Source: Myxococcus stipitatus
GTDB taxonomy: Bacteria; Myxococcota; Myxococcia; Myxococcales; Myxococcaceae
Reading direction: 5' to 3'
DNA length: 64,000 bases
NCBI RefSeq assembly: GCF_037414475.1
Contig: NZ_CP147913.1
Span: forward strand, 9,062,501 to 9,126,500
In this document: positions 18,193 through 35,857 of the stretch, in pieces
Layout of the letters: the number at the start of each line of letters is the position of its first letter
Position numbering within the stretch: position 1 is the stretch's first letter
Notes under the pieces: model-generated
The model's input: only the letters and a program-made list of their open reading frames with translations
Told to the model about the DNA's origin: nothing
Databases searched by the model: none
Program-made: the position numbers and the translations under genes

Positions 18193-18318
18193 TCCTCCAG
18201 CCTGGTGTGGGCTCGGGGCGTCGAGGCTCCGGGCCCTGCCGCGCCGGTCCGCCGCTGCGCGGAGGTGCGGGGTGGGGTAGGGTGGTGGCCCATCTCGAAC
18301 CGTAGGGCCGGCCGCCAC

Positions 18319-19464
18319 ATGTCCACAGAAGTCGTTGTCTCTGAAGAGACTCGGCCCTCGGCCACCTGGAAGTCCCGGCTGCGCGCCCTGGCCGTGGAGC
18401 TGTCGTTTCCGGTGGGGCTCTTCTTCTTCAGCCGGCTGGCGCTGTTCCTGCTCGCGCGCGTCTCCCTGCTGTTCGACCCGAGGCTTCATCGCGGGCCGTT
18501 CCATCAGGAGGGGCTCGCGGGGCTGGACGCGTTCTGCCGATGGGACTGTGGCTGGTACGCGGAGATTGCACGGCAGGGCTATGTGCGCCCCCAGGCCACC
18601 AACTTCTTTCCGTTCCTGCCGCTGACGGCGAGGTTCGTGAGCGAGGTCACGGGGCTGGGCATCCCGGAGTCGCTGGTGCTCATGGCGAACGTGGGGGGAT
18701 TGCTGGCGCTCGTCGTCCTGTACCGGCTGTTTCGCGCGCTGGAGGGAGAGGAGGTGGCCCGGGTGTCGCTGCTCCTCTTCATGGCCTATCCCTTCGCGTT
18801 CTTCCAATCCGCGGGCTACCCCGAGTCGTGGATGGTGTTCTTCACCGCGCTCGCGCTGCTGCTGGGCCTTCGAGGGAGACCCTGGTCGGCGGCGCTGGCG
18901 CTGGGGTTCGGGGGCCTGGCGCGCCACCTGTCGCTCGTGGCGGGGTTGGGCTTGCTCTTCCAGCAGCTCCGCTCGCGCGGTGGAGGGTGGAGGGCGTGGT
19001 TCCAGCGAGACCTGTTCGCCTTGGCGCTGCCCCTGGTGATGGTGTCGCTCTACTTCCTCTTCCTGGGGCGGCGGTTCGGGGACCCGCAGCTCTGGTGGAA
19101 GGTTCGTGACAGCGAGTGGGCGGGAGCGTGGGCGGGATTGGTGAACTGGTGGCGAGGAAACTGGGCGCCCGAGGTGAACCTCTACGTGGCGATGTCCTTC
19201 GTCCCGGGAGTGGGGGCGCTGTTGCTGGCGAGGCACCGCCGTTGGTGGACGCTGGCTGCCTTCGGGATTCCCTTGATGCTCGTGCTGTGGAGCGTGGGCC
19301 TGGTGGGTCTGGGGCGCTACAGCGCGGCGGTGTGGCCCGCGTTCCTTCCGTTGGGGGCCTGGCTCAGCCGGCAGCCCGCGCTGCGAGGCCCCATGGTGCT
19401 GGGCTTCGCTCTCTTCCAGGGCATGCTCGTCTTCCTCTTCGTCCACTCGTACCCCATCAACTAG
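18319..19464 (+). CDS. PIG-V-like integral membrane mannosyltransferase
   Basis: A 381-residue GT-C-type membrane protein. The luminal/periplasmic loop after the first membrane segment has FCRWDCGWYAEIARQGY and then NFFPFLPL, matching the WDxxWY...GY...FFPxxP pattern of the PIG-V family (GPI mannosyltransferase 2 and bacterial relatives), in which the Asp is thought to be catalytic. Nine or ten hydrophobic helices follow. Such enzymes use lipid-linked sugars as donors outside the cytoplasmic membrane. ATG at 18319 is chosen because the protein then has a short polar head and enters the membrane; the open frame upstream is only GC-driven. The stop is 12 bases from the stop of the convergent lipoprotein gene of the synthase operon, a suggestive but not proven link. 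Confidence 0.75.
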   Translation: MSTEVVVSEETRPSATWKSRLRALAVELSFPVGLFFFSRLALFLLARVSLLFDPRLHRGPFHQEGLAGLDAFCRWDCGWYAEIARQGYVRPQATNFFPFLPLTARFVSEVTGLGIPESLVLMANVGGLLALVVLYRLFRALEGEEVARVSLLLFMAYPFAFFQSAGYPESWMVFFTALALLLGLRGRPWSAALALGFGGLARHLSLVAGLGLLFQQLRSRGGGWRAWFQRDLFALALPLVMVSLYFLFLGRRFGDPQLWWKVRDSEWAGAWAGLVNWWRGNWAPEVNLYVAMSFVPGVGALLLARHRRWWTLAAFGIPLMLVLWSVGLVGLGRYSAAVWPAFLPLGAWLSRQPALRGPMVLGFALFQGMLVFLFVHSYPIN

Positions 19465-19476
19465 ACCAGACCCGCC

Positions 19477-20184
19477 TCAAGGGCGAGGCACCGCGAGTTG
19501 CAAGGCCACCCGCACGTTGTCCGAGCGCAGCCCCACGGGGCCTTCGAGCTCGAGCGCCTGGGGAGGAAGCTTCCCTGCCCAGACCAGGGCGTCATCCGCC
19601 CAGACACGCAACACTCCCGCGTCCAGGTCCGCGCGCAGGGTGTGTTCTGTTTCGAGTCCCGGAGCGGGGGCACTCGCCTGGCTTTGTTGGGAAGGGCGAA
19701 CGGTGGTGTAGCCCGCGTTTCCACAGTCGTTGCTGTGGTGCATGTCTGGGTTTCGCTTGTAGTTGACGACGACACCGGGTTTTGGAGCGATTCGCCACAT
19801 CACATACAGCACATTGCAGCCATCCATGGCGCGCAGCTTGAGACCCACTTGCTGACGCAGCTCTCCGGATTCGAATGCCCGCTGCTCGGTGGAGGGCCCC
19901 GACAGCTTGAATCGCAGCACAGCTTGAGCTGTCTTCGAGCCGGGAACCACGGCCCTCATCCGCGCGGTCCGCACGGTAAGCCAGCCATCGGGTTGTTCGC
20001 CCAGCTCCCCTTGCGTCACCTTCATCCGGGGCAGGGGCACCACTTCGAGCGGGGTCATGTGCGAGTTGACCTGCTGGCTGGCGGGAGGCCTGGGTGGCTC
20101 AGGGGGCGTGGTGCGCGGACATCCCAACCCACCCAGCACGGCCCATCCCAGGCAAGCGGCGAAGACCCGCCAGAGGGAGGTCAC
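19477..20184 (-). CDS. Lipoprotein with lectin-like beta-sandwich, last gene of the synthase operon
   Basis: Starts with GTG at 20184, which overlaps the stop of the upstream gene as GTGA, so translation is probably coupled. The N terminus (VTSLWRVFAACLGWAVLGGLGC) is a lipoprotein signal with Cys22. The mature 210 residues are beta-rich with the pattern of a concanavalin/LamG or DUF1080-like sandwich: VLRFKLSG, VGLKLRAMDGCNVLYVMWR, VVVNYKRNPDMHHSNDCG and a final HTLRADLDAGVLRVWADD. DUF1080-type domains bind or cleave glycans. Position after a synthase, adaptor and outer-membrane protein suggests it handles the exported polymer at the cell surface, by inference only. Confidence 0.7.
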   Translation of the reverse strand: MTSLWRVFAACLGWAVLGGLGCPRTTPPEPPRPPASQQVNSHMTPLEVVPLPRMKVTQGELGEQPDGWLTVRTARMRAVVPGSKTAQAVLRFKLSGPSTEQRAFESGELRQQVGLKLRAMDGCNVLYVMWRIAPKPGVVVNYKRNPDMHHSNDCGNAGYTTVRPSQQSQASAPAPGLETEHTLRADLDAGVLRVWADDALVWAGKLPPQALELEGPVGLRSDNVRVALQLAVPRP

Positions 20185-21293
20185 GGAGGGGTGGGTCCCA
20201 GGAGCGACGCGAGCGCCTCCACATGGGCCGTCAGATAGGCCTGCTCCGCGCGAAGCCTCGCCAGCTCCAGGAGGAGGTAGTCCCGGAACCGGCGGACCTC
20301 GCGTGTCTGGAGCGCTTCCACCTCCCGAAGCTGTCCCTCCAGGTCCGTCACCAGCGCCGACACCTCTCGCAGCCGGGCCTCCTCCGTCCGATGTCGCGCG
20401 CGCAGCTCCGCCAGCAACTCGGAGACCTGCTGGTCCACGCCGCCCACGTCGGTCTTCGTCGCGCGACGGCGGCCCTCTCGCGCCCGGGCGTTGGCCTTTC
20501 CCTGCCACAGATGGCCCAGGTCATACGACAGTAGGACCTGCCCGAAGAGCGGGACGTCCTGGTCCAGGTCGAAGACCTCGTCGTAGCCACCGCGGAGGCT
20601 GAGCTCCCAACCCTTGGCGCGGCGCAGGCCCGCGGACGCGGCCTCCACCGCGTCATCCGCCGCGCGGAACTCCTCCAGCAAGGATTCGAGCCGCTGGCCT
20701 CGCGGAAAGCCAGGTCGCGCGGCCAGCCGCTCCCGCGCCATGGCGGTGTCCGTGTGTAGCGCGCGAAGGTTGTCCAGTCGCACCTGCACCGCGTTGAGTT
20801 CTTCCAAGGTCGCCCGGCCCTCACGCAGGTCCGAGCGAAGCGCCGTGACGAGCGCCTCCGCCCGTGGCAGGGCCTCCGCGAGCACTCGGGCCCGAGCCTC
20901 CAGCGCGGAGTCCTCTCCCAGCCCCGCGCCCTGTCTCACGGCGGCCTGGAGCGAGGAGAGCGCCTTTTGCCGGCGGCACTCGGCGGCGGCGCGTTGGTGA
21001 ATCACCCGGCCTCGGTAGAGGCCCACGACGTCGTAGCTCACGCCCGCGGTGGCGCGAGGCTTGGGCTTGCCCAGGTCCGTCCCGCCCTCGGCCTGGCCCG
21101 TGTTCACCACACCGAAGCTGCCGAACACCTCCGGCGCCAGTTCCAGCGCGGCCTCCGCGTCGCCGACTCCGCGCACCCACTCGCAATAGCCCTCCGCGCG
21201 CGCGTCGACCTGGGTGTCGGGGTTCGCCGCGAGGGCCGAGGGTGTTCGCGCGGCGAGATACAGGAGCGCGCCGCAAGTGAGCGTCTTCCGCAT
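20181..21293 (-). CDS. TolC-like outer-membrane channel protein
   Basis: A 370-residue exported protein; the start is set at MRKTLTCGALLYLAARTPSALA, a type I signal cleaved near residue 22. The rest is mostly long amphipathic helices with heptad spacing (LAEALPRAEALVTALRSDLREG, LRARHRTEEARLREVSALVTDLEG) separated by a beta-rich stretch ELSLRGGYDEVFDLDQDVPLFGQVLLSYDLGHL (ends only meaningful), which resembles the membrane-strand segments of TolC/outer-membrane efflux proteins. TolC members have two such halves of about 200 residues. The downstream lipoprotein start overlaps this stop by GTGA and the adaptor gene is 8 bases upstream, so the four genes form one operon. Assigned by layout, not by a diagnostic motif. 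Confidence 0.65.
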   Translation of the reverse strand: MRKTLTCGALLYLAARTPSALAANPDTQVDARAEGYCEWVRGVGDAEAALELAPEVFGSFGVVNTGQAEGGTDLGKPKPRATAGVSYDVVGLYRGRVIHQRAAAECRRQKALSSLQAAVRQGAGLGEDSALEARARVLAEALPRAEALVTALRSDLREGRATLEELNAVQVRLDNLRALHTDTAMARERLAARPGFPRGQRLESLLEEFRAADDAVEAASAGLRRAKGWELSLRGGYDEVFDLDQDVPLFGQVLLSYDLGHLWQGKANARAREGRRRATKTDVGGVDQQVSELLAELRARHRTEEARLREVSALVTDLEGQLREVEALQTREVRRFRDYLLLELARLRAEQAYLTAHVEALASLLGPTPP

Positions 21294-21301
21294 GGGGCTC
21301 C

Positions 21302-22402
21302 TCACAGGAAAAGGGGCGCGCGGCCCAGGTGCAGCAGGTCCTCGCGGGCCGACGTGGCGTCCGTGAGCTTCAGCTCCACCATCACCCCGCGCAGCATGTG
21401 CTGACGGATGGGGTGCTTGATGGAGACCTCCCCCTCCAGCACCTGGCCCACCACGCCGACTTCGCGGCACCACACGACCTTCGCGGCACATGCGAAGAGC
21501 GGCGTGCCGGCCCCCGCGTTGTTCAGGTTCTCGTACGGAACGAAGGCCACGGCCAGGTCCTTCTCGATGGCCCGCAGATACGGAGACGCGCGAAGCGACG
21601 TGATGAGCGACTCGTAGCGCTGGGTCACGTCCTCCAGGGCCTTCAGGTCCTGTTGCAGGCTCCGCATGGTCGCCTCCGCGCGAGCCTGCTCCAGGACCGA
21701 GTGCGTGTATTCGCGCTCCAGCAGCAGGACGTCCGAGGTGATGCCCTCGGGGATGCCGTCCTTGCCCATCCGGTCCTGCACCGCCGTCAGACCCGCGATT
21801 TCGCGCTGCAGCGTCTCCGTCCGGGTCTCCAGCTCCACGGTGGTCTGCGCCAGGGAGAGGTTGCTCTGCGCGAGCTGGGCTAGGTGGTGGTTGAGCGTGA
21901 GCTTGTCCTCCTGTTGCAGCAGCCGCGCGCCGTACATCGCATCCGTGCGCGCGCGGGTGAGCCCGGCATAGGCGCGGTTGGACTTGAGGATTTCGTCGCG
22001 AGCGTGGTTGTACTCGAAGCGCAGCGCGGCCAGCCGCTTCGCCGTGCGGCTCTTGGAGGCACGCTCATCGCTCAAGGCCACCAGGAAGCGCTGCTGGAAT
22101 GCATGCTCCGCGGCGGCGGTGCGCTCCGCGTCCATCATGCGGTTCTCGACGGCGCGACGCTCGGAGAGCACGTGGTCTCTCGACGAGGTCTGCGCCGCGA
22201 CCTGCGCATTGAGCGTGAGGATGTGCGGGTCCGTGGGCGAAATCACCGCGGGGGTGGCCCAGCTGCGGCTCAGGAGGAAGAAGCCCTGCACCGACAGGAA
22301 GGACACCAGCGCCAACAGGATGAGGCCGAGCAGCACCGACCCCATGAGCTTGTAGGCGGAGACGGCGGCCGAGTTGATGCGGTTCGCGACGCGTTGATTC
22401 AT
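21302..22402 (-). CDS. HlyD-like periplasmic adaptor (membrane-fusion protein)
   Basis: A 366-residue protein with one N-terminal membrane helix (VLLGLILLALVSFLSVQGFFLL, residues ~23-44), a long periplasmic coiled coil (~80-270) and a C-terminal beta domain with FVPYENLNNAGAGTPLFACA and EGEVSIKHPIRQHMLRGVMVEL. This is the layout of HlyD/Alg44-type adaptors that link an inner-membrane exporter or synthase to an outer-membrane channel. The usual lipoyl half-motifs are not evident. Its ATG overlaps the stop of the glycosyltransferase gene (ATGA), indicating tight coupling with the synthase. It would complete the synthase-adaptor-channel chain with the next gene. Confidence 0.75.
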   Translation of the reverse strand: MNQRVANRINSAAVSAYKLMGSVLLGLILLALVSFLSVQGFFLLSRSWATPAVISPTDPHILTLNAQVAAQTSSRDHVLSERRAVENRMMDAERTAAAEHAFQQRFLVALSDERASKSRTAKRLAALRFEYNHARDEILKSNRAYAGLTRARTDAMYGARLLQQEDKLTLNHHLAQLAQSNLSLAQTTVELETRTETLQREIAGLTAVQDRMGKDGIPEGITSDVLLLEREYTHSVLEQARAEATMRSLQQDLKALEDVTQRYESLITSLRASPYLRAIEKDLAVAFVPYENLNNAGAGTPLFACAAKVVWCREVGVVGQVLEGEVSIKHPIRQHMLRGVMVELKLTDATSAREDLLHLGRAPLFL

Positions 22403-23649
22403 GGGGCGCTCTCACCGGCGGGATTGGATGGCAGGCGGCTTTCCTCGCCCGCGACGGAGGGCGCCTTCGCCGCGCTGGGACTGCCGCGTGTCTCCCAGCT
22501 CCCTGAGTCCAGGGTGAGCAGGGCGAGCGGCGTGAAGAGCGCGTACGTCACGGGCATCAGCAGCGCCATGGGCAGGAAGCACGCACCATGCACACGCCGG
22601 TCCTCGGGCAGGTGCCGCGTCTCCAGCCGGTAGACGATTCCCAGCAGTCCGATGACCAGGAAGTGGAACGAGAGGATGTCCAGGAACTCTCCGGTGAGGA
22701 CGTTGTGGACGATGACGACCGGGTAGGCGAGCAGCAGCGCGAGCTGGGACACGTAGTGGACCGTCACCACCGGGTGCAGCCGCCACGCGTGGGACAGTCC
22801 GCCGAGCAGGTCCACCAGGTTGGAGCGCCGCCACCGGAGCTGCTGGGAGAAGTAGCCGGCGAGCGTCGCCGGTGCGGCGGTGAAGCAGAACGCGTCCAGC
22901 GTGTAGACGGTCTCGTAGTCGTGTTTGACGATCTGCCGCGTGAGGAAGCGGTCCTCGCCGTACTTGATGGGGATGCCCGCGATGGCGCGGGCCTCGAGGA
23001 TGGGCTCCAGCTCCAGCAGCACGTGGCGGCGGTACGCGGTGAGGCAGCCGGACAGACACATCACCTGACGGAAGCTGCGCTCCAGGTCCTTCAGCCACTG
23101 CTGGGCGAAGTGGAACTTGATCTCCACCATGCGGGTCAGCCAGTTCTGATGGCGGTTCGTCACATAGGTGCGTCCGCCCACCGCGGCGATGCGAGGGCTG
23201 ACGAAGCGGCGCACCAGGTGGCGCACCGCGGACTTGTCGACGATGACGTCCGAGTCGACCGAGACGATGATCTCCGCGTCGACGGCGGCCTTGACGCCCC
23301 GGTTGATGCCCTTGCGCTTGCCCATGTTCTCGGGGTTGCGCATCACCAGGACATTGGGCGTGCCCTCCGCGGCCTTGAGGGCCCACGCGTAGCTGTCATC
23401 GTTGGAGCAGTCATCCACCACCACGATTTGCAGCAGGTGGCTTGGGTAGTCCTGCTCCAGCAGGCTGCGCACCGCGTGGAAGATGCCTTTGCCCTCGTTG
23501 AAGAGAGGGATGACGATGGCGACGCGGGGTTGGAAGGTGTCGTCCGCCTGGTCGATGCCGCCGCCGCGCACCCGCCGCAGGAACGGACCGAGGATGTAGC
23601 GGTTCATCAACACGACGATGAACAGCAGATGGATGGGAAAGAGCTCCAT
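22399..23649 (-). CDS. Processive family 2 glycosyltransferase (hyaluronan/NodC-type synthase)
   Basis: A 416-residue membrane-bound polysaccharide synthase. Catalytic motifs appear in the right order: IVVVDDCSNDD (UDP-sugar Asp), SVDSDVIVDK (DxD), LSGCLTAYRR, YGEDRFLTRQ (GED general base) and QQLRWRRSN (QxxRW), as in hyaluronan synthase, NodC and IcaA. One N-terminal and three C-terminal hydrophobic segments frame the domain. Start at ATG 23649 (MELFPIHLLFIVV); longer frames add only Arg/Pro-rich sequence. It is the first gene of a four-gene operon with adaptor, TolC-like and lipoprotein genes, so the polymer is probably pushed through the synthase and out to the surface. Sugar unknown. There is no PilZ domain, so cyclic-di-GMP control is not indicated. 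Confidence 0.9.
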   Translation of the reverse strand: MELFPIHLLFIVVLMNRYILGPFLRRVRGGGIDQADDTFQPRVAIVIPLFNEGKGIFHAVRSLLEQDYPSHLLQIVVVDDCSNDDSYAWALKAAEGTPNVLVMRNPENMGKRKGINRGVKAAVDAEIIVSVDSDVIVDKSAVRHLVRRFVSPRIAAVGGRTYVTNRHQNWLTRMVEIKFHFAQQWLKDLERSFRQVMCLSGCLTAYRRHVLLELEPILEARAIAGIPIKYGEDRFLTRQIVKHDYETVYTLDAFCFTAAPATLAGYFSQQLRWRRSNLVDLLGGLSHAWRLHPVVTVHYVSQLALLLAYPVVIVHNVLTGEFLDILSFHFLVIGLLGIVYRLETRHLPEDRRVHGACFLPMALLMPVTYALFTPLALLTLDSGSWETRGSPSAAKAPSVAGEESRLPSNPAGESAP

Positions 23650-23888
23650 CAGGTCTCGCCCCCCATCACGCCGCCACTCCTTGCCCCTAGCGGCTGTGCC
23701 GCTCCGCTTCTCCCGTGGGGGAGCGGTGGGAAAGTTGGCGGGCCTGGGGCCCACGCCAACTGCCCCCGAGGATGGTGGAACGGGGTTGCCCACTCTGACG
23801 TCAGCGCGCCTCAGTGCGTGTCCGCCCGTCATCAGCGGCTGGAACAGGAGGGCGCCCGTTTCGTCGTGAGGTGGACGCCCCGAAGGCG

Positions 23889-25103
23889 TCAGTGGGCCGC
23901 GGGGGGCGAGGGAGACGTCACCGCGTCCGCGCGTTGGAGGTCCCGGGTGAGCTCCGCCTTGCGGGCATCACGCTGGGCCGCGGACGTGAAGGCGATGCCC
24001 TCCATGGATTCGCGCGACGCAATGGCCACGCGCGCCAGTCCGTCGCGGGAGATGAGGCCCAGCGCGAAGGCCTCCAGCGCGGCGCCCACGTACGTGTCGA
24101 AGAAGTAGATGTGTCTGTCCCGCCAGGCGCGGCGAGCCGTCTCAGGGGTCTCCACGACGTCGTGGATGAAGACGGCATGCACGCTGTGCGGCGCGGCCGA
24201 GAGCATCCTGTCGCCGAACTCAACGTCCCCCTGGCCGCTGTCGCCCACGAAGACGAAGCCGTACTCGGGGAAGATGCGCGCATAGCGTTGGAAGTTGTCG
24301 AACTTCTTCGCGGCGATGCGCGAGTTGCCCAGCAGATGGGTGAGGCTGCCGGAGAGCACGACGTGGGGCGGTACGCCGTGCTTGCGCAGGCTGTCGAACG
24401 TCAGGTTCTCCACGGCGCCCAGCGGGTCCATGGGCCGGGCGGTGACGAAGGTGAGGTCCCCCTCGCGGCCCGGGATGATGCCCGGGCCCCGGTCCAGCTC
24501 CGCGTAGAAGGCCAGCACCCCGGGGTACACCGTCTTGGATGGGTACCGCGTGTCCTTGAGGTTGACGTAGAAGGTGTCGTCGATGTCGCTGAGGATCTTG
24601 TTCTCCCCGCTGGGGGCGGACTCGGCCTCGCGGCGGATGTGGGCGAGGATGTCCTCGCGAACCGCCGGGTCGTCCATGTCGTCGAAGAGCAGCTTCTCCA
24701 GGTCCTGGTGGTTGTTGCCCGCGTCGAGCAGGTTCTTGAAAGCGGTCAGCTCGCGGCCGCGCACGCCGAGGAACAGGTCTCGGATGCACCGCTCCGCCAG
24801 GGTGGGGGTGGAGCCGCGCTGGAGCGCCGTCACCAGGCTGGCGCGCAAGGGCAGGGCCAGCTGCGTGGCCCGCTCCCGACAGAGCATGTCCAACAACTGC
24901 GTGTGGTGGTCCGGTCCGAAGATGCCGTCGTCCAGGTCGCCCAGCAGGGACTCGAGGTCGATGTTGGCCAGCAGGAAGTTCAGCTCGGCGGCGCTCGAGT
25001 CTCGCAGCAGGTCGAGGATTCGGCGCTCCTCGCTCGTGTCGGTGTGCCCGGCCATGAGCATGCGCAGCGTCTCCAGCTTCTTCGTCGCGGCGTGCGAATC
25101 CAT
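23889..25103 (-). CDS. App1-like phosphatidate phosphatase domain protein (DUF2183)
   Basis: A 404-residue cytosolic protein. The C-terminal half has the HAD-like App1 catalytic set: SDIDDTFYVNL (DxDxT nucleophile motif, ~185-195), FVTARPMDPLG, LSGSLTHLLG and FVFVGDSGQGDVE (late Asp motif). Yeast App1 is a phosphatidate phosphatase; bacterial relatives are uncharacterised. The first ~150 residues are helical and belong to no family I recognise (RILDLLRDSSAAELNFLLANIDL in two parts). ATG 25103 is chosen because it opens the conserved helix and a purine-rich GGGGGGAA stretch precedes it. It is divergent from the phosphopantetheinyl transferase gene with a 74-base gap. Confidence 0.82.
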   Translation of the reverse strand: MDSHAATKKLETLRMLMAGHTDTSEERRILDLLRDSSAAELNFLLANIDLESLLGDLDDGIFGPDHHTQLLDMLCRERATQLALPLRASLVTALQRGSTPTLAERCIRDLFLGVRGRELTAFKNLLDAGNNHQDLEKLLFDDMDDPAVREDILAHIRREAESAPSGENKILSDIDDTFYVNLKDTRYPSKTVYPGVLAFYAELDRGPGIIPGREGDLTFVTARPMDPLGAVENLTFDSLRKHGVPPHVVLSGSLTHLLGNSRIAAKKFDNFQRYARIFPEYGFVFVGDSGQGDVEFGDRMLSAAPHSVHAVFIHDVVETPETARRAWRDRHIYFFDTYVGAALEAFALGLISRDGLARVAIASRESMEGIAFTSAAQRDARKAELTRDLQRADAVTSPSPPAAH

Positions 25104-25177
25104 GCTGTTCCCCCCGTTCCGGCGCGGGGCCGGAGATGGACCTCGCAGCCTACGCGGGCAACCGTGGGCCGTGGTAG

Positions 25178-25963
25178 ATGAGGGGCATGTCGACTGTTGG
25201 CGAGCCACTGGAGCTACGTCCGGACGAAGTCCATGTGTGGGTTGTCGAGCCCGAGCGCATCCAGGAGCAGAAGCTCCTGGACGCCTACTGGGGCCTGCTG
25301 GACGCGGCAGAGCGCGAGAAGCAGAAGCGCTTCCGCTTCGAGCGCCACCAACGGCAGTACCTGGTGAGTCACGCGTTGGTGCGAGTGACGCTGTCACGCT
25401 ACGCGCCGGTGGCGCCCACCGCGTGGACCTTCTCGACCAACGCCTATGGTCGGCCGGAGATTCGAGGCGAGTGGGGCGCGCGCCTGCGCTTCAACCTCTC
25501 GCACACGGATGGCATGGCGCTGGTGGCGGTGGGCCTGGACGCGGAGCTGGGGGCGGACGTGGAGGACAGCCAGCGGCCCGGGGATACGGTGGAGATCGCC
25601 GACAGCTTCTTCGCCGCCTCCGAGGTCGCCGCGCTCAGGGCCCTTCCCGTGGCCGAGCAGCGAGGCCGCTTCTTCGAGTACTGGACGCTCAAGGAGGCCT
25701 ACATCAAGGCGCGAGGCGCGGGGCTGTCCTTGCCATTGGACCAGTTCGCCTTCCACCTGGCGCGGGGGCAGGAGCCGCGCATCTCGTTCGATGCGCGGAT
25801 GGCCGATACGCCGGAGACGTGGCGGTTCCTGCAGTGGTGCCCCTCGGAGCGCCACCACGCGGCGGTGGCGCTGCGCAGCGCCCGGACGAACCCCTTCCGG
25901 GTGCGCTGGCAGTTCACCGTCCCGCTGGCCTCGGACGCGCCTCCTCGCTTCGAGGCGGCCTGA
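25178..25963 (+). CDS. 4'-phosphopantetheinyl transferase, Sfp type
   Basis: Transfers phosphopantetheine from CoA to carrier proteins of fatty-acid, polyketide or nonribosomal peptide synthases. The magnesium/CoA motifs are clear: NLSHTDGMALVAV, GADVED (~128-133) and FFEYWTLKEAYIKARGAGLSLPL (WxxKEA core). Length 261 is normal for Sfp-type enzymes. Two starts are possible, ATG 25178 or ATG 25187; neither has a strong ribosome site. Convergent with a type II thioesterase gene, 3 bases apart. The pair is typical of the accessory set of PKS/NRPS metabolism, although no synthase lies in the window. Confidence 0.92.
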   Translation: MRGMSTVGEPLELRPDEVHVWVVEPERIQEQKLLDAYWGLLDAAEREKQKRFRFERHQRQYLVSHALVRVTLSRYAPVAPTAWTFSTNAYGRPEIRGEWGARLRFNLSHTDGMALVAVGLDAELGADVEDSQRPGDTVEIADSFFAASEVAALRALPVAEQRGRFFEYWTLKEAYIKARGAGLSLPLDQFAFHLARGQEPRISFDARMADTPETWRFLQWCPSERHHAAVALRSARTNPFRVRWQFTVPLASDAPPRFEAA

Positions 25964-25966: not shown

Positions 25967-26752
25967 TCAGGCGGGGGTCGTCATCCAGCGAGTGAGGTCC
26001 TCGCCCAGCGCCGCGAGCAGGGCGGTCTGCTGCTGGCGAAGGAAGAAGTGACCTCCCTCGAAGTGGCGGACTCGGAAGTCGGCGTGGCGGGTCTCCTCGC
26101 GCCACGTCTCCAGACGGGCGAGCGGGACGTGCTTGTCGTCGGTGCCGCCCATCACGGAGATGGGGACGTCCAGCTTCACCGGCGACGGGCCGTTCTCCCA
26201 CCACGCCAGCGCGAAGTCCGCGCGCAGCGTGGGCACCAGCAGCTCCAGCAGCTCGCGGTGCTGGAGGATCTCCTCCGGCGTGCCGTCGTAGCGCCGCAGC
26301 TCCTCGATGAACTGCTCCTGCGGGAGGTGGTGGATGGGCTTGCGGTCCGACTCGCGAGGCGCGCCGGCCGCGGCCAGCACCAGGCCTCGGGGGAGCGGAC
26401 CGTTGCGCGCGTACAGCCGCCGCGTCAGCTCCAGCGAGATTCGCGAGCCCATGCTGTAGCCGAAGAAGACAAAGGGCCTGTCCAACAGCGGCGCCAGCAC
26501 GGGCAGCAGGCCGTCCACCAGCGCGGGCAGGTTGTCGAAGGGCTTCTCCATCAACCGGCGCTCACGGCCGGGGAGCTGCACCGCGCAGAGCTCTACGCCC
26601 GGCGGAAGACCTCCTTGCCAGCTGCTGTAGATGGATGCGCTGCCGCCCGCGAAGGGCAGGCAGAACAAGCGCAGGCGCGGGTCCGGTTGGGGCTTGCGGG
26701 AAGGAAACCAGCGGTCAGGGGCGTTCGGGTTCGAGGCGGGCGCACTGGGCAT
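25967..26752 (-). CDS. Type II thioesterase (alpha/beta hydrolase)
   Basis: Editing thioesterase that removes wrong acyl groups from PKS/NRPS carrier domains. The 261-residue chain has CLPFAGGSASIY early, the nucleophile elbow FGYSMGSRISLEL (Ser ~98), an Asp in VMGGTDDKHVP (~205) and the catalytic His in FEGGHFFLRQQ (~235), the full triad of the GrsT/TEII family. Start at 26752 gives a short polar leader before the first strand. It lies tail to tail with the phosphopantetheinyl transferase gene and back to back with cysD, a layout that suggests a secondary-metabolism support module. Confidence 0.92.
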   Translation of the reverse strand: MPSAPASNPNAPDRWFPSRKPQPDPRLRLFCLPFAGGSASIYSSWQGGLPPGVELCAVQLPGRERRLMEKPFDNLPALVDGLLPVLAPLLDRPFVFFGYSMGSRISLELTRRLYARNGPLPRGLVLAAAGAPRESDRKPIHHLPQEQFIEELRRYDGTPEEILQHRELLELLVPTLRADFALAWWENGPSPVKLDVPISVMGGTDDKHVPLARLETWREETRHADFRVRHFEGGHFFLRQQQTALLAALGEDLTRWMTTPA

Positions 26753-26916
26753 GACGTATGGCTCTGTCGCACAGCCGAGGAAAACGGGTCAAGCCCTCGC
26801 GGCTTCGAGAGGGCTGGAGACTTCCGTTGGACATGCATGACTGACGTGTTTGACTTGGTATTCGTGAGTGAGTGGGCTCGCGGGGCTCGGTGGTGGCCGT
26901 GGTAGCTTTCAGCGCC

Positions 26917-27822
26917 GTGAGCTACGAGCTGTCGCACCTGGACGCCCTCGAGGCGGAGTCGGTGTTCATCATCCGGGAGGTGGTCGCCGAGCTGGACAGC
27001 CCGGTGCTGCTGTTCTCGGGTGGCAAGGACTCCGCGGTGATGTTGCACCTCGCGGTGAAGGCGTTCGCACCGGCGCCGCTGCCCTTCCCGTTGCTGCACG
27101 TGGACACGGGGCACAACTTCCCGGAAGTGCTCAAGTACCGGGACGCGCGGGTGGGAGAGCTGGGCACGAAGCTCCTGGTGGCGTCCGTGCAGGAGGCCAT
27201 CGACGCGGGGCGGGTGGCGGAGGAGAAGGGGCCTCGAGCCTCGCGCAACCGGGCGCAGACGGTGCCGCTGTTGGAGGCCATCGAGAAGCATCAGTTCAAC
27301 GCCGTGTTCGGAGGCGCGCGCCGGGACGAGGAGAAGGCGCGGGCGAAGGAGCGGGTGTTCTCGTTCCGCGACGAGTTCGGGCAGTGGGACCCGAAGAACC
27401 AACGTCCGGAGTTGTGGAGCCTCTACAACGGCCGCCATCGCCGGGGGGAGCACCTGCGGGTCTTCCCGCTGTCCAATTGGACGGAGCTGGATGTGTGGCA
27501 GTACATCGCGCGCGAGGGTGTGGCGCTGCCGTCCATCTACTTCAGCCATCGCCGCGAGGTGTTCCGCCGGGATGGGATGTGGATGGCGTGGTCGCCCTAC
27601 CTGCCGCTGCTTCCGGGCGAGGAGGTGAAGACGGCCTCGGTGCGGTTCCGCACGGTGGGGGACATGACCTGCACCGCGTGCGTGGAGTCCACCGCGTCCA
27701 CGGTGGACGAGGTGATTGCCGAGATTTCCGCCTCGCGAATCACCGAGCGGGGGGCCAGCCGCGCCGACGACAAGTTCAGCGAGACGGCGATGGAAGACCG
27801 CAAGCGGGAGGGCTACTTCTAG
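26917..27822 (+). CDS. cysD: Sulfate adenylyltransferase subunit 2
   Basis: Small subunit of ATP sulfurylase, forming adenosine 5'-phosphosulfate from ATP and sulfate. FSGGKDSAVMLHLA (~residues 31-44) is the PP-loop, followed by LLHVDTGHNFPEV, FGGARRDEEKARAKER and FPLSNWTELDVWQYI, all family signatures. GTG 26917 gives 301 residues, as in E. coli CysD (302), whereas the longer frame adds hydrophobic residues of no use. The stop TAG shares its G with the GTG start of cysN. Together with cysN and cysC it makes PAPS for cysteine synthesis or sulfotransfer. Confidence 0.96.
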   Translation: MSYELSHLDALEAESVFIIREVVAELDSPVLLFSGGKDSAVMLHLAVKAFAPAPLPFPLLHVDTGHNFPEVLKYRDARVGELGTKLLVASVQEAIDAGRVAEEKGPRASRNRAQTVPLLEAIEKHQFNAVFGGARRDEEKARAKERVFSFRDEFGQWDPKNQRPELWSLYNGRHRRGEHLRVFPLSNWTELDVWQYIAREGVALPSIYFSHRREVFRRDGMWMAWSPYLPLLPGEEVKTASVRFRTVGDMTCTACVESTASTVDEVIAEISASRITERGASRADDKFSETAMEDRKREGYF

Positions 27823-29078
27823 TGGAACTTCTTCGATTCGCGACCGCGGGCTCCGTCGACGACGGCAAGAGCACCCTCATCGGGCGGTTGCTCCACGACA
27901 CGCGCTCGATTCTGGAGGACCAGCTCGCGGCGGTGGAGCGCACCAGCCGCGCGAGGGGCGATGAGTACGTCAACCTGGCGCTGCTGCTGGATGGCCTGAA
28001 GGCCGAGCGCGAGCAGGGCATCACCATCGACGTGGCCTACCGCTACTTCGCGACGGCGCGGCGCAAGTTCATCATCGCGGACACTCCGGGGCACCTGCAG
28101 TACACGCGCAACATGGTGACGGGTGCGTCCACGGCGGACCTGGCGCTCATCCTGGTGGATGCGCGCAAGGGCGTGCTGGAGCAGACGCGGCGCCATGCCT
28201 TCATCGCCTCGCTGTTGCGGGTGCCGCACCTGGTCCTCTGCGTGAACAAGATGGACCTGGTAGGCTTCGACGCGGCGGTCTTCGAGTCCATCCGCGACGA
28301 GTTCCGCAAGTTCTCCATGAAGTTGGACGTGGCGGACCTGACGTTCATCCCCATCTCCTCGCTGGGGGGGGACAACGTGGTGACGCGCTCGGAGCGGATG
28401 CCCTGGTACGAGGGCTCCACGCTGCTGCACCACCTGGAGAACGTGCACATCGCGTCGGACCGCAACCTCATCCACGTGCGCTTCCCGGTGCAGAGTGTCA
28501 TCCGGCCCATGTCCACGAAGTACCCCGACTATCGGGCGTATGCGGGACAGGTGCTGGGCGGGGTGCTGCGGCCGGGCGACGAGGTGATGGCGCTGCCGTC
28601 GGGCTTCACCACGCGCGTGAAGACGTTGGAGCTCGCGGGGCGTGCGGTCGCGCAGGCGTTTCCGCCCATGTCCGTGAACGTGTCGCTGTCGGAGGAGCTG
28701 GATATCAGCCGGGGCGACATGCTGTGCCGGCCGGGCAATCCGCCCATGATGGGGCAGGACCTGGACGCCATGGTGTGCTGGCTGGCGGAGGGCGTCTCCC
28801 TTCAGCCGGGCTCACGCTTCGCGCTGAAGCACACCACGCGCTCGGCGCGCGCGCAGGTGAAGCATCTGCACTACCGGCTGGACATCAACACGCTCAGCCG
28901 CGACGAGAAGAGCCCGAAGCTGGGGCTCAATGAAATCGGGCGGGTGACGCTGCGAACCACGGTGCCGTTGTTCTTCGACGAGTACCGGCGCAACCGCCAC
29001 ACGGGCAGCTTCATCCTCATCGACGAAGCCACGAACGCGACGGTGGGCGCTGGGATGATCAACGGCCCCGCTGTCTGA
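27822..29078 (+). CDS. cysN: Sulfate adenylyltransferase subunit 1 (GTPase)
   Basis: GTPase subunit that couples GTP hydrolysis to APS formation. AGSVDDGKSTLIGRLL is the P-loop (residues ~9-24), EREQGITIDVAYRYF is the switch I region, DTPGHLQYTRNM is G3 and CVNKMDLV is G4; C-terminal beta barrels follow. About 418 residues, shorter than E. coli CysN (475) and not fused to CysC, which follows as a separate gene. GTG start overlaps the last base of the cysD stop, so the two are translationally coupled. An in-frame upstream extension through the cysD region is only a shadow. Confidence 0.95.
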   Translation: MELLRFATAGSVDDGKSTLIGRLLHDTRSILEDQLAAVERTSRARGDEYVNLALLLDGLKAEREQGITIDVAYRYFATARRKFIIADTPGHLQYTRNMVTGASTADLALILVDARKGVLEQTRRHAFIASLLRVPHLVLCVNKMDLVGFDAAVFESIRDEFRKFSMKLDVADLTFIPISSLGGDNVVTRSERMPWYEGSTLLHHLENVHIASDRNLIHVRFPVQSVIRPMSTKYPDYRAYAGQVLGGVLRPGDEVMALPSGFTTRVKTLELAGRAVAQAFPPMSVNVSLSEELDISRGDMLCRPGNPPMMGQDLDAMVCWLAEGVSLQPGSRFALKHTTRSARAQVKHLHYRLDINTLSRDEKSPKLGLNEIGRVTLRTTVPLFFDEYRRNRHTGSFILIDEATNATVGAGMINGPAV

Positions 29079-29079
29079 G

Positions 29080-29643
29080 GTGCGCATGGTGCCGCGAGAC
29101 TCCGGATTCATCCTCTGGTTGACGGGCATGTCGGGCGCGGGAAAGAGCACGCTCTCGCGAGCGCTGCGCGCGCACCTGGAGCCCTTGCGGTCCGTGGAGG
29201 TGATGGATGGCGACGAGGTCCGTACCTGGCTGACGCGGGGCCTGGGCTTCTCGCGCGAGGACCGCGAGGAGAACGTGCGCCGCATCGGACATGTGGCGCG
29301 GCTGCTCGCCCGTCACGGAGTGGGCGTCATCGTCGCCGCGATTTCGCCGTACCGGAGCTCTCGTGCGGAGGTGCGCCAGTTGGCGACGGACGCGGGGCTT
29401 GCGTTCGTCGAGGTCTACATCCAGGCGCCGCTGGACGCGCTCATCGCCCGGGACGTGAAGGGGCTCTACAAGAAGGCGCTGGCGGGGGAGCTGCGGAACT
29501 TCACGGGAGTCTCGGACCCGTATGAGGCGCCCGAGTCCCCCGAGGTCGTCGTCCGCTCCGCCGAGGAGCCGGTTGAGGCGGGACTGGAGCGCGTGTTGGA
29601 GGCGCTCCAGTCCAGGGGCTTGCTGGCGAATCGCGCGGCCTAG
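29080..29643 (+). CDS. cysC: Adenylylsulfate kinase
   Basis: Phosphorylates APS to PAPS. Walker A GMSGAGKSTLSRAL (~16-29), MDGDEVRTWLTRGLGFS (the DGD/lid motif), FVEVYIQAPLDALIARD and KGLYKKALAGEL are the APS kinase signatures. GTG 29080 or ATG 29086 may be the start; it follows the cysN stop by one base. Its TAG stop shares the palindrome CTAG with the stop of the convergent MBL gene. PAPS supply next to phosphopantetheinyl transferase and thioesterase genes could serve sulfated metabolites as well as cysteine synthesis. Confidence 0.95.
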   Translation: MRMVPRDSGFILWLTGMSGAGKSTLSRALRAHLEPLRSVEVMDGDEVRTWLTRGLGFSREDREENVRRIGHVARLLARHGVGVIVAAISPYRSSRAEVRQLATDAGLAFVEVYIQAPLDALIARDVKGLYKKALAGELRNFTGVSDPYEAPESPEVVVRSAEEPVEAGLERVLEALQSRGLLANRAA

Positions 29644-31241
29644 CGCAGGACGCGCTCCATCTTCACGTAGGGACGCTCGGCGGGGATGCCCTTGCCGCGG
29701 CAGTGCTCGATGAACTTGTTCGACTCGATGAGCTGCGGGGCCGTCTCGTCGTAGACGAGGATCATCACGTGGCGCAGCCAGGGCTCCTGGCCCATGGCGT
29801 AGACGTAGACATCCTTGGGCGTCAGGTGGTTGGTGATTTCGATGGCGCGGGCGCAGTCGGAGCCGTTGAGGCGCCGGGTCTGGTCCATCTTGCGCGGCAG
29901 CGGGTTGGTGAGCAGCGGGCCGTACATCCAGCTCATGGGGCCGCCTTCGCACTCCATGCCCAGGAACAGGATGTCGATGGGGCCGATGATGTCGCGCAGG
30001 TGCTGGTACATGCGCGGCTCCAACGCGTTGGAGTCGGCCGCCATCAGGATGGACTTGCCATCCAGCCGCACGAGGTGCGCCGTCTTGGCCTGCACGGCCA
30101 GGTCGCTGTGCTCGCCGAGGAAGGGCAGGCCGGTGATGGAGCCGCCCGGCACGGGAATCTCCTGCAGGTCGTCGATCTCCACCACGTTCTTGAAGCCGGT
30201 GTGGTGCAGCATCAGCCGCAGCGAGGGGTCCGCCAGCGAGTTGCCGTTGTTGCGAGGCACGATGATGGTGCCCACGCGGTGGCGCAGCTGGATGAGCGTC
30301 TCCATCATCAGGTGGTCGGCGTGGCCGTGGGTGATGACCACGTAGTCGATCTTCTCGGGCAGGTCCGCGTGCGTGAAGCGCGGCAGGTCCGTGGGGAACT
30401 CGTAGCTGATGACGGGGTCCGTGAGGATGCTGACGTCCTTCGTCTCCAGCAGCACGCAGGCGTGGCCGAAGTAGCGCACCCGGACACCCTCGCCGTCATA
30501 GCGGGGCGCCTTGCGAGGCACGGTGTCGGTGAACAGGTCCGCGAAGGCGGCGGACGCCGAGGCCGGCACGCCGAGCATTTCCGCCACCTGGCCTGGCGAG
30601 CCCGGCGTGTGGCGCATGCGGAACAGCGCGTCCAGGCCCTCGTGGCGGTAGGGCACCTTGAGCCACAGCGGCGCGTCCTCCTCGAGCCGCGGCGTGCTGA
30701 AGATGTAGGGGCGCCAGTCCTTGTCCACCTGCATGAGCGTCACGCTCTGCGAGGACTCCTGGTAGAAGCGGCTCTTGTAGAGCAGGGGCTCGATGTAGCG
30801 GGCGCTGGCTCGGTTGCTGAGGTCGTACGTGAGCTCCACGTAGCCGCGCAGCATGTCCGGCACCTTGGAGTAGAGGTGCTCCAGCGACGCGCCGTTGTTG
30901 GGCGCGAGCAGCTGCTCCAGCTCTCCCACGGCCTTGGTGTACGCGAGCATGTGCGCCTGCTCGCGCTGGGTCCGCTCTAGCAACTCCTTGACCCGGGGCG
31001 CTCGCGCGGCCGGGTGGTTGATGAAGGGGCCCCCCATCAACATGGGGTTCTTCAGCGCGGCCACGTGTACATCGGGATTCGCGACGAACGACTGCATCAG
31101 CTTCAGATGCAGGTTCGTCACGAACATGGGCGCCGTGGCGGGCGACAGCAGGAACCACCACGCGTACCACTGGTTGTACAGGGGCTCGATAGCCACGTTC
31201 GGCTTGAGGTACATCGGTCGGTCGAGCATCGGGTTCTCCAA
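29640..31241 (-). CDS. Large MBL-fold protein resembling CmlA-type beta-hydroxylases
   Basis: A 533-residue protein with a unique N-terminal domain of ~255 residues (starts MYLKPNVAIEPLYNQWYAWW) and a C-terminal MBL-fold domain with VRVRYFGHACVLLET, ITHGHADHLMMETL (HxHxDH, ~315-320), LGEHSDLAV (Glu where many family members have His, ~373-380) and MAADSNALEP. Size and layout match CmlA, the di-iron enzyme that hydroxylates a carrier-bound amino acid in chloramphenicol biosynthesis, which also has a Glu in the third ligand position; CmlA itself has Glu in the second, where this protein has the ordinary His. Neighbouring phosphopantetheinyl transferase and thioesterase genes fit such a role. 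Identity with CmlA function is inferred. Confidence 0.7.
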   Translation of the reverse strand: MENPMLDRPMYLKPNVAIEPLYNQWYAWWFLLSPATAPMFVTNLHLKLMQSFVANPDVHVAALKNPMLMGGPFINHPAARAPRVKELLERTQREQAHMLAYTKAVGELEQLLAPNNGASLEHLYSKVPDMLRGYVELTYDLSNRASARYIEPLLYKSRFYQESSQSVTLMQVDKDWRPYIFSTPRLEEDAPLWLKVPYRHEGLDALFRMRHTPGSPGQVAEMLGVPASASAAFADLFTDTVPRKAPRYDGEGVRVRYFGHACVLLETKDVSILTDPVISYEFPTDLPRFTHADLPEKIDYVVITHGHADHLMMETLIQLRHRVGTIIVPRNNGNSLADPSLRLMLHHTGFKNVVEIDDLQEIPVPGGSITGLPFLGEHSDLAVQAKTAHLVRLDGKSILMAADSNALEPRMYQHLRDIIGPIDILFLGMECEGGPMSWMYGPLLTNPLPRKMDQTRRLNGSDCARAIEITNHLTPKDVYVYAMGQEPWLRHVMILVYDETAPQLIESNKFIEHCRGKGIPAERPYVKMERVLR

Positions 31242-31426
31242 GCGAGGCTCGATTATCTTGGAGAGTTCAGAGTCAGGGAAGCACGATGATGCAGTCGTCC
31301 CTGGTAGAGCGAGGGTACGGCACCTGTCGGGTCTTCTTGTCTGTGCGCCTTGTACATGCGCTACAGTTTCCGAGGGTTTTGGCGGTTGCGCAGGATTTGC
31401 GCGGCGGCACGCGGAGGCTCACGACC

Positions 31427-32629
31427 ATGACTTCACCCTCGGCATCCTTCGAAACGTCATTGGCGGGATGGGCCCGGAAGCTGGCGCCCTCGGCCATCCA
31501 AGACATGCTCCAGAAAATCACCCGGCCAGGCGTCTACTCGCTGGCGCTGGGGCTTCCCGCGGCGGAACTGTTCCCCACGGAGGGGATGGCGGAGGCGGCG
31601 GCGAGGGTGTTGGCGGAGCAGGGTGGGGCCTTGCAGTACTCGCCCACGCTGGAGCCGCTCCGGGAGCAGGTCGTCGCGCTGATGGCGCGGCGGGGTGTGC
31701 GGTGTTCGCCGGGGCAGGTGTTCCTGACGACTGGGGCGCAGCAGGGGATGAACCTGCTGTCGAGGCTGCTGCTGGAACCGGGGCAGGCGGTGTTGTTGGA
31801 GGACCGAGTGTATTCGGGTTTCCAGCAGGTCTTGGACCCGTTCCAGTCGAGGCGCCTCACGGTGCGGAGGGATGCGGAGCGGGGGTTGGACCTGGATGGG
31901 CTCGAGTCGCTGCTGGCGTCGGGAGAGAGGCCGGGGCTCTTCTACACGATGAGCGATGGGCACAACCCGCTCGGGACGAGCCTCGCGATGGAGGCGCGGG
32001 AGCGGCTGGTGGGGCTGGCGCGGAAGTACCGCATGCCGGTCATCGAGGATGATGCGTATGGCTTTCTCCGGTACGAGGAGGAGGCCGCGCTACCGCCGCT
32101 GCGTGCGTTGGATTCGCAGTGGGTGTTCTACGTGGGGTCGTTCTCGAAAATCCTGGCGCCCGCGCTGAGGGTGGGCTGGGTGGTGGTGCCGGAGTCGATG
32201 GTGTTCCGGTTGGCGACGGTGAAGGAGTCGAGTGACATCGACACGGCGACCTTCACCCAGCGCATCGTGCTGGCGTTTCTGGAGTCCGGGCGGTTGGACG
32301 GGCACCTGGAGAGATTGCGGCGGGAGTATCGGACGCGGCGCGACACGCTCCTGCGAGCGTTGGAGACGCACCTGCCGCCGGGGGCGAAGTGGACTCGGCC
32401 GAGTTACGGGATGTTCGTCTGGGTGGAGCTGCCCGAGGGGCGTGACACCACGGTGTTGCTGGCGCGTGCGTTGGAGACGCAGCAAGTGGCCTACCTGCCG
32501 GGGCAGGCGTTCAGGGTGAGCGGGGGACGTTCGGCGTCCCACTGCATGCGCTTGAACTTCTCTCACTGTGAGCCGGCGCGAATCGAGGAAGCGGTGCGCC
32601 GGCTCGGTGGAGTCTTGAGGGAGGGGTGA
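31427..32629 (+). CDS. PLP-dependent fold-type I aminotransferase (2-aminoadipate/aromatic type)
   Basis: A 400-residue class I/II aminotransferase. Landmarks are LALGLPAAELFP, TTGAQQGMNLLSRLLLEPG, TMSDGHNPLGTSL (Asn-Pro binding PLP region), VIEDDAYGFLRYE (Asp bound to PLP N1), VGSFSKILAPALRVGWVVV (Lys Schiff base in SFSK, ~240) and CMRLNFSHC (Arg for the substrate carboxylate). This set is shared with LysN/ARO8-type enzymes and with the aminotransferase half of MocR regulators, but there is no HTH domain here. ATG 31427 is chosen because GGAGG lies nine bases upstream. Divergent from the MBL gene. Confidence 0.88.
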   Translation: MTSPSASFETSLAGWARKLAPSAIQDMLQKITRPGVYSLALGLPAAELFPTEGMAEAAARVLAEQGGALQYSPTLEPLREQVVALMARRGVRCSPGQVFLTTGAQQGMNLLSRLLLEPGQAVLLEDRVYSGFQQVLDPFQSRRLTVRRDAERGLDLDGLESLLASGERPGLFYTMSDGHNPLGTSLAMEARERLVGLARKYRMPVIEDDAYGFLRYEEEAALPPLRALDSQWVFYVGSFSKILAPALRVGWVVVPESMVFRLATVKESSDIDTATFTQRIVLAFLESGRLDGHLERLRREYRTRRDTLLRALETHLPPGAKWTRPSYGMFVWVELPEGRDTTVLLARALETQQVAYLPGQAFRVSGGRSASHCMRLNFSHCEPARIEEAVRRLGGVLREG

Positions 32630-32636
32630 GGTTCCC

Positions 32637-33617
32637 TCAGGGGTGGGGCTGGGAGGCGGCGGGCTTGTTCTCGGCGCCTTCGATTTGAATCTGCTCGAGG
32701 GCGGAGTCCTTGACCTCGATCTTCGCCTGGGACTTCAGGCGCTCGAGGAGGCTCTCCATGGACTTGGACCGGCGCTCGCCTTGGAGGCGGGCTTCGATGC
32801 GGGGCTTGGCCTGTTCGAGGGACTGGTCCATGCCGGCCTGGCGGCTTTGAAGCTTGACGAGGTGGATGCCCTTGTCGGTCTCGACGACCTGGCTGAGCTC
32901 GGACGCGGATTGGAGGGCGAAGGCCGCGTCCGTGAAGGCGGAGCCCCATGCCTGGGTCAGCTCTTCGCGACTGCGGTAGCCGAGGTCTCCGCCGCTGGAC
33001 TTGGAATCGGTGTCCTGTGACGTCTTGGTGGCGGCGACCTCGAAGGCGGTCTTGAGGGGATCGGACTCCTTGGACTTGATGTCTGCGAGGAGCTTCACGG
33101 CTTCGGCGCGGGCCTTGGTGCGGAGGGCGGCGTCGGCTGTGGGGGCGACCAGGAAGATATGACTGACGCGGATCCGCTCGGGCTTGATGAACTCGGAGCG
33201 GTGCTCGTCGTAGTACTTGCGCAACTCCACTTCGTCGAGAGGGGCCGCGGCGGCGGCTTCCTGCTGCTTGCGCAGGAGCTTCTGCACCATGGCTTTCTCG
33301 AGGGTTGCCTTGACGTCGGGGTCGTTCTCCATCCCCTGTCGTCGAGCCTCCTGCACGAGGAGTTCGAAGCGGATGAGGTTGTCGACGAACTCCTTCTTCT
33401 TCTCCATCGTCGCGTAGCGGCTGCGGACGAAGAGCGGCTGTTCGTCCAGCTTCGACTTGACCTCCTGGGCGGACAGGGACCGGTCATTGATGACCGCGAC
33501 GACGGGCCCGGAGTCCAGGGTGCTCTGCGCCGCAGGGCGGGAGGAGCTGTTGCCACAGGCGGAGAGGGCGATGGCGGCGAGGACCGAGGACAGGATTCGG
33601 GTGGTGCGTGTGGGCAT
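32637..33617 (-). CDS. SurA/PrsA-like peptidyl-prolyl isomerase lipoprotein
   Basis: A 326-residue lipoprotein; start at MPTRTTRILSSVLAAIALSAC (Cys21), nine codons inside a longer open frame. The N-terminal SurA-type helical region (VVAVINDRSLSAQEVKSKLD, then ELLVQEARRQGME) precedes a parvulin-like domain of ~100 residues with IRVSHIFLVA, GGDLGYRSREEL and IHLVKLQSRQ, the conserved strand pattern of rotamase family 1. Such proteins help fold exported proteins in the periplasm. Its control region (33618-33760) abuts the accessory island. A fragment with a similar N terminus appears on the other side of the IS at 35666. Confidence 0.85.
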   Translation of the reverse strand: MPTRTTRILSSVLAAIALSACGNSSSRPAAQSTLDSGPVVAVINDRSLSAQEVKSKLDEQPLFVRSRYATMEKKKEFVDNLIRFELLVQEARRQGMENDPDVKATLEKAMVQKLLRKQQEAAAAAPLDEVELRKYYDEHRSEFIKPERIRVSHIFLVAPTADAALRTKARAEAVKLLADIKSKESDPLKTAFEVAATKTSQDTDSKSSGGDLGYRSREELTQAWGSAFTDAAFALQSASELSQVVETDKGIHLVKLQSRQAGMDQSLEQAKPRIEARLQGERRSKSMESLLERLKSQAKIEVKDSALEQIQIEGAENKPAASQPHP

Positions 33618-33981: not shown

Positions 33982-34014
33982 TGTCAACGTGAATGAGACA
34001 GTGAAACTGAGAGA

Positions 34015-35426: not shown

Positions 35427-35665
35427 CGTCCCTGCCTGGGTCGCCCTGCACACTAAACTGCTGGGTACGAACTGTCTCACTCACGTTGGCAGAGAGGGCT
35501 GTGCTTGCGAGGGGCGCTGGCGGTGAATGCTTGCAGCATGCTGCTACATGTAGTGGTGAAAGAAAGTGAAACATGCACTTGAATTGCAACTCCAATATGG
35601 CGCATCGTGACCTGTGAGCCGTTTGAGTCAGCGGGTTTGACGTAAAGAGGGGGCTCAATCCTCAG

Positions 35666-35848: not shown

Positions 35849-35857
35849 GGGTGGGCA

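Follow-up and report, generated by a model that had tools for sequence, protein, structure and literature searches.

Does the myxobacterial repertoire of surface glycans include a polymer made and exported by a synthase-dependent system? The polysaccharides of Myxococcus xanthus have been assigned exclusively to Wzx/Wzy and ABC pathways, and Perez-Burgos et al. (2020) found no synthase-dependent homologues in that species (PMC7484181). A block of four genes in Myxococcus stipitatus raises the question anew. It lies on the minus strand at 19477-23649 of the stretch analysed here (64,000 nucleotides, hereafter the window; NZ_CP147913.1, positions 9,062,501 to 9,126,500), within a single-contig replicon of 10.3 Mb. 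An initial annotation took the block to encode one machine, comprising a processive family 2 glycosyltransferase (GT2), an HlyD-like adaptor, a TolC-like outer-membrane protein and a lectin-like lipoprotein. From support that is computational throughout, we estimate a probability of about 0.78 that the four genes specify a synthase-dependent glycan exporter with a tripartite, TolC-type conduit. No description of this four-gene locus was found in the literature searched, and the proposal of a distinct route, possibly undescribed in this group, also fits the M. xanthus survey.

All four genes proved real and conserved; they lie where they had been placed, with start codons that match ortholog alignments. 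The synthase and adaptor genes overlap by 4 bases (ATGA), an arrangement kept in 10 of 12 orthologous loci, and the channel gene overlaps the fourth gene to the same extent (GTGA). The 8-base junction between adaptor and channel, initially read as an overlap, proved to be a gap. Synthase and adaptor stand side by side in all 27 Myxococcus genomes searched (the genus being taken broadly, with Pyxidicoccus records included), and each intact locus read from Myxococcus, Corallococcus and Archangium has all four genes in order, as does the locus of genome G041. A record named M. xanthus strain AM003 (L066) carries the complete set. Because adjacency or linkage recurs in all 27 genomes and in the intact loci of relatives, the arrangement is not due to chance. 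In one record titled Comamonas sp. KCTC 72670 (L065), a title that looks wrong, the locus is of Myxococcus type and its synthase is 87% identical.

Adaptor and synthase also travel together on a larger scale. Adaptor matches coincided with synthase orthologs in 32/32 genomes of a first set. Among 195 genomes of the phylum, the adaptor was found in 61 and the synthase in 60; of the 62 genomes with at least one of them, 59 have both. The three genomes with one partner (G109, G132 and G150) are drafts of at least 860 contigs; in G109 the adaptor is fragmentary. This co-occurrence, together with the linkage, supports the idea of one machine in which a synthase has its own export chain. All or almost all genomes of two large genera (g1 and g31) have the system, and in the rest of the family its distribution is patchy. 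Scanning named genomes added Pyxidicoccus, Citreicoccus, Corallococcus, Archangium, Sorangium cellulosum, Kofleriaceae and many metagenome-assembled genomes. Identity declines from the synthase (55-96%) to the fourth protein (37-77%). The four-gene order seen in Myxococcus, Corallococcus, Archangium and G041 changes further out: in Kofleriaceae-type loci, many of which have all four genes adjacent, the synthase is divergent from the adaptor, channel and fourth genes, and in Sorangium the fourth gene comes ahead of the channel. It is thus linkage, rather than exact gene order, that is conserved.

The assignment of the first gene to a GT2 synthase, probably a processive one, agrees with the sequence comparisons. 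Its product matches the Pfam families Glyco_tranf_2_3 (5.9e-30) and Chitin_synth_2 (5.3e-18) and has the canonical features of a GT2 synthase, namely the catalytic D, DxD, ED and QxxRW motifs plus transmembrane segments (by hydropathy, one N-terminal and about four C-terminal). The motifs read NEG51-53, VVDD77-80, DSD132-134, GED231-233, QQLRW269-273 and GSWETR383-388, and NEG, VDD, DSD, GED, QQ(L/I)RW and LDSGSWETR are invariant in nine orthologs with identity down to 55%. A profile of nine orthologs aligns to hyaluronan synthase 1 (8smm, 1.4e-30) and to a second hyaluronan synthase, 7sp7 (1.8e-22). The alignment runs through the C-terminal transmembrane part, placing TLDSGSWETRG of the synthase opposite TMFDIAWGTRG of 7sp7. 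In processive hyaluronan and chitin synthases, the WGTR segment forms part of the gating loop. From these sequence comparisons, we predict a GT2 enzyme of the hyaluronan-synthase/NodC/chitin-synthase type, probably processive, whose gating motif is WGTR-like.

As originally remarked, no cyclic di-GMP (c-di-GMP)-binding domain is visible: Pfam and NCBIfam profile searches of the four proteins detected neither PilZ nor any other. Rfam, applied at its gathering threshold to the whole window, returned two tRNAs only and no family between the synthase and the next gene upstream, so a known c-di-GMP riboswitch is absent 5' of the synthase. Control by c-di-GMP is still possible without a recognisable domain, because the rhizobial synthase BgsA binds c-di-GMP without a predictable domain for it (PMC5567048). 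A second GT2 gene, about 27% identical to the synthase in its product, is truncated by the edge of the window.

Profile searches against solved structures gave nothing useful for the adaptor, channel or fourth protein; only the comparison of folds was informative. For the channel, the call of a TolC-like protein proved sound. The OEP family of Pfam matches 11 of 13 channel orthologs (E < 1; best, 1.9e-6), and the window copy just misses the cut-off (20.1 versus 22 bits). Its AlphaFold2 model (mean pLDDT, the predicted local distance difference test, 84) has a duplicated helix-strand-strand-helix plan. All 39 Foldseek matches below E 1e-3 are outer-membrane factors (OMFs), including OprN, OprM, VceC, CusC and TolC, with a best value of 5.7e-11. 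VIA-align superposed the model on OMFs with Z of about 14 over 330 residues (root-mean-square deviation about 9), compared to Z of about 8 or less for unrelated rows. By these computations, the modelled channel is an OMF of OprM/TolC fold, although a short one: 370 residues including the signal peptide versus about 400-490 in solved chains.

For the adaptor, AlphaFold2 predicts (mean pLDDT 85) a transmembrane helix at about residues 20-38, a coiled coil at 59-271 and a C-terminal beta module, in which Cys305 and Cys312 are invariant across orthologs. EmrA (4tko, 6e-5) is the only Foldseek match below E 1e-3, and MacA stands further down the list. HlyD appears among the VIA-align rows, yet unrelated coiled coils dominate them; hence these rows were not used as evidence of kinship, and nothing was concluded from families absent from them. 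We treat the predicted protein as working like an EmrA/HlyD adaptor, a role read from its fold, and claim no family membership.

Does the adaptor work with both the synthase and the channel? A natural deletion is suggestive. In one clade of synthases, the adaptor is short (about 265 residues), with the membrane anchor and C-terminal module kept and most of the coiled coil gone. The channel gene is found beside 30 of 32 long-adaptor loci versus none of 10 short-adaptor loci. In the synthase tree, loci with a short adaptor or none fall into one group (97% SH-aLRT), and since nearly a single clade thus lies behind the association, the Fisher test of coil versus channel (P = 4.5e-8) was not used as independent evidence. 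The tree suggests that coil and channel were lost jointly, in essentially one event. The pattern fits a coil that docks the channel and a C-terminal module that works with the synthase. Synthase loci with a coil-less adaptor and no channel are L106, L108, L109, L111-L115, L119, L120, L122, L130 and L134. In L109, an acyltransferase-3 gene adjoins the adaptor gene; other coil-less loci have a Ser/Thr kinase-nSTAND gene or sensor kinases downstream.

These parts suggest the following mechanism. The GT2 enzyme would polymerise sugar from a UDP-sugar donor, most likely a UDP-N-acetylhexosamine (UDP-HexNAc), perhaps along with a uronic-acid donor. The growing chain would leave through the membrane channel of the synthase itself, as in hyaluronan synthase. 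We infer direct contact between the parts: the adaptor would be seated on the synthase and, by way of its long coiled coil, would dock the short TolC/OprM-fold channel, making a closed conduit across the periplasm and outer membrane. A probable task of the fourth, secreted protein is to bind or organise the polymer.

Clues to the polymer come from relatives. A nucleotide-sugar 6-dehydrogenase gene accompanies the system at seven loci, being divergent from and adjacent to the synthase in L116, L127, L128, L129 and L135, nearby in L110 and inside the operon in L138. These enzymes meet the general subfamily TIGR03026; at subfamily level, those of L138 and L128 resemble TviB (UDP-N-acetylglucosamine C-6 dehydrogenase) and those at other loci UDP-N-acetylmannosamine dehydrogenase, in each case below cut-off. 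A cluster of 12 loci has WbqC-like genes, a type linked to polysaccharide clusters, next to the synthase or close to it; a Pfam check covered three members. The dehydrogenases hint at a uronic-acid polymer, and our best guess for the donor is UDP-HexNAc or its uronic form. L138 lies outside the phylum, on plasmid PPGU19_p2 of the insect-associated Paraburkholderia sp. PGU19. There, a single strand carries genes for an EAL-domain protein, adaptor, channel, nucleotide-sugar dehydrogenase, GH16-like protein and synthase, in that row. The GH16-like protein matches the NCBIfam beta-glucanase profile below cut-off (2e-11) and Pfam GH16 just above it (9e-5).

The fourth protein has a signal peptide and invariant residues Cys123 and Cys154, and no significant family was found with Pfam, structure profiles or orthologs. 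LamG_2 and 3keto-disac_hyd gave sub-threshold matches to single orthologs, and both the LamG and 3-keto-disaccharide-hydrolase matches stayed at noise level in larger alignments, which is why we leave the lectin assignment open. By analogy, the GH16-like protein of the Paraburkholderia operon is a hint that a ConA-like fold belongs in this position. The window copy reads GGLGC, which is not a canonical lipobox; a convincing one is missing from Archangium-type and other orthologs and clear in many Kofleriaceae-type relatives (LAAC, LVAC, VAAC). Of the description 'lectin-like lipoprotein', the lectin part draws on faint matches, and lipidation varies among orthologs and is doubtful for the window copy.

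Several observations weigh against reading the block as a polymer exporter. No Pfam or NCBIfam family matches the adaptor, and none of 13 adaptor orthologs has an HlyD-type Pfam match, so that the label 'HlyD-like' comes from the predicted fold and not from sequence profiles. The adaptor model shows no clear lipoyl domain, TM-scores were low (about 0.2 for the adaptor and 0.4 for the channel), and coiled coils resemble many unrelated proteins. The correlation of coil with channel amounts to about one evolutionary event. The best characterised subfamily match of the synthase is NodC (165.5 bits, under the curated TIGR04242 cut-off of 550), a maker of short oligomers. In Myxococcus itself, no nucleotide-sugar dehydrogenase is adjacent to the system. 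Finally, the fourth gene was not seen in some relatives (L126-L129), and Paraburkholderia has its GH16-like gene in that position instead.

The NodC resemblance leads to the closest alternative, in which the enzyme is a NodC-like oligosaccharide or glycolipid synthase and what leaves through adaptor and channel is not a polymer but a short glycan, lipo-oligosaccharide or glycolipid. Besides heading the NCBIfam profiles, NodC homologues dominate the plasmid matches (29-30% identity), and the usual cargo of tripartite conduits is small molecules or proteins (PMC8277102). We consider this unlikely, given a score so far under the cut-off (165 versus 550 bits), the lack of NodA-, NodB- or NodI-like partner genes and of a transporter for a lipid-linked product in the block, and the alignment of the C-terminal SGSWETR region with the hyaluronan-synthase WGTR gating region.

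Export of a protein by the adaptor and channel, in type I fashion, with the GT2 enzyme glycosylating that surface or secreted protein, would account for a conserved and usually linked fourth gene. Yet the fourth protein comes with a signal peptide of its own, the block has no ABC exporter, the synthase is by prediction a processive-type enzyme with multiple transmembrane segments in the inner membrane, and L126-L129 retain synthase, adaptor and channel without the fourth gene; such a role seems very improbable. Least credible of all is that adaptor and channel serve ordinary efflux or type I secretion and sit beside a glycosyltransferase by chance. The channel does have the fold of drug-efflux OMFs, and EmrA is the nearest fold to the adaptor. 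However, Pfam and NCBIfam revealed no ABC, RND or MFS transporter among the four genes or their immediate neighbours, leaving the synthase as the only inner-membrane partner in the block. Co-occurrence and linkage with the synthase are near-perfect, phylum-wide and in Paraburkholderia; loci that have lost the channel still keep the short-adaptor module with the synthase; and neither channel nor adaptor has a paralog in its own genome at the thresholds used. The initial annotation had named drug efflux or type I export, with no synthase elsewhere, as the outcome that would overturn it. Since adaptor and synthase co-occur as described and the block has no efflux or type I transporter, the data point the other way.

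How does such a glycan exporter relate to known systems? Like canonical Bcs, Alg and Pga, the block has an inner-membrane GT2 synthase, expected to couple synthesis to translocation, and periplasmic and outer-membrane parts of its own. A tetratricopeptide repeat (TPR) scaffold and a beta-barrel porin are described for those systems (PMC9601211; PMC9603273), the porin having 16 to 18 strands (PMC9601211), and a c-di-GMP receptor usually goes with them. In the block, Pfam and NCBIfam found no TPR match in the four proteins, the periplasmic part being a coiled-coil adaptor, and the channel has the OMF fold with four strands per chain rather than a monomeric barrel. As both scaffold and porin were sought and not found, the block is not a member of the canonical type.

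The nearest precedent is the XcsA-XcsB-TolC model of cyanobacterial cellulose secretion (Maeda et al. 2018), which a review presents as a proposal without experimental validation, with scattered genes (PMC12430437). The block shares its three-part plan of GT2 synthase, HlyD-like adaptor (here by fold only) and TolC-type channel. It differs in having these three genes together, in a synthase that is hyaluronan-synthase/NodC-like with no PilZ detected, whereas XcsA-XcsB-TolC has PilZ in its synthase, and in lacking a glycosidase gene to correspond to the XcsC endoglucanase. Rhizobial BgsB/BgsA, which make a mixed-linkage beta-glucan, likewise pair a GT2 synthase with an HlyD-domain protein, thought to help form the glucan channel (PMC9495663). 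However, BgsA is cellulose-synthase-like and is activated by c-di-GMP via its C terminus, and the bicistronic operon is without the channel gene that the block has. Hyaluronan synthases and NodC/chitin synthases share the catalytic motifs and C-terminal W-x-T-R gating-type region and include users of UDP-N-acetylglucosamine, with identity to the synthase of about 30% or less; we know of no comparable envelope-spanning partners for them. EmrAB-TolC and other tripartite efflux pumps have similar adaptor and OMF folds, but their inner-membrane part is a transporter, in place of the predicted polymerising glycosyltransferase and shorter channel of the block.

M. xanthus is a leading model of bacterial multicellularity, and with another conserved route, studies of motility, development and predation would gain a missing polymer. 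The compact block would also allow a test of whether a glycan synthase can use a TolC-type tripartite conduit, an idea so far unproven. M. xanthus makes a 'poorly characterized slime polysaccharide' (PMC7310880), for which the block is a candidate system, although this link is speculation. We regard as doubtful, if worth stating, the wider proposal of a phylum-wide class of glycan secretion that combines a hyaluronan-synthase-like enzyme, an EmrA-like adaptor and a shortened OMF to export an N-acetylhexosamine/hexosaminuronate polymer, serves as a core function in Myxococcus and could supply the slime of gliding.

Table 1. Genes of the block and other features, by position in the window
Feature	Position	Strand	Basis
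GT2 glycan synthase, predicted processive type, 416 aa	22399-23649	-	Pfam/NCBIfam profiles, ortholog motifs
Putative membrane-anchored periplasmic adaptor, 366 aa	21302-22402	-	AlphaFold2 model, Foldseek
Short outer-membrane-factor (OprM/TolC-fold) channel, predicted, 370 aa including signal peptide	20181-21293	-	OEP match, AlphaFold2, Foldseek
Fourth, secreted protein, 235 aa, signal peptide, possibly ConA/LamG-like	19477-20184	-	Sequence, sub-threshold matches
Stretch without assigned gene upstream of synthase start, presumed promoter region	23650-23888	.	Inferred from gene layout
Second GT2 gene, truncated	5-748	+	
PIG-V-like mannosyltransferase family membrane protein	18205-19464	+	
APP1-type phosphatidate phosphatase domain gene	23889-25397	-	
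Sulfate activation and tailoring genes	25967-32629		
Region of lowered G+C content	32000-42000		
tRNA at the end of that region	41859-41932		

We looked for additional conserved neighbours of the Myxococcus operon and found none that reaches past near relatives. The PIG-V-like gene, convergent to the operon, occurs in near relatives only. The APP1-type gene, directly upstream of the synthase on the same strand, is common to Myxococcus, Corallococcus and Citreicoccus loci and was not seen further out. Upstream of the operon, genes for a thioesterase, phosphoadenosine phosphosulfate (PAPS) reductase, adenosine phosphosulfate (APS) kinase, CmlA-type diiron hydroxylase and aminotransferase are grouped, placing sulfate activation beside tailoring genes of the non-ribosomal peptide synthetase type. 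Beyond them, G+C content falls to 0.57-0.65, compared to about 0.68 elsewhere, and this region, with a tRNA at its end, may be an integrated element.

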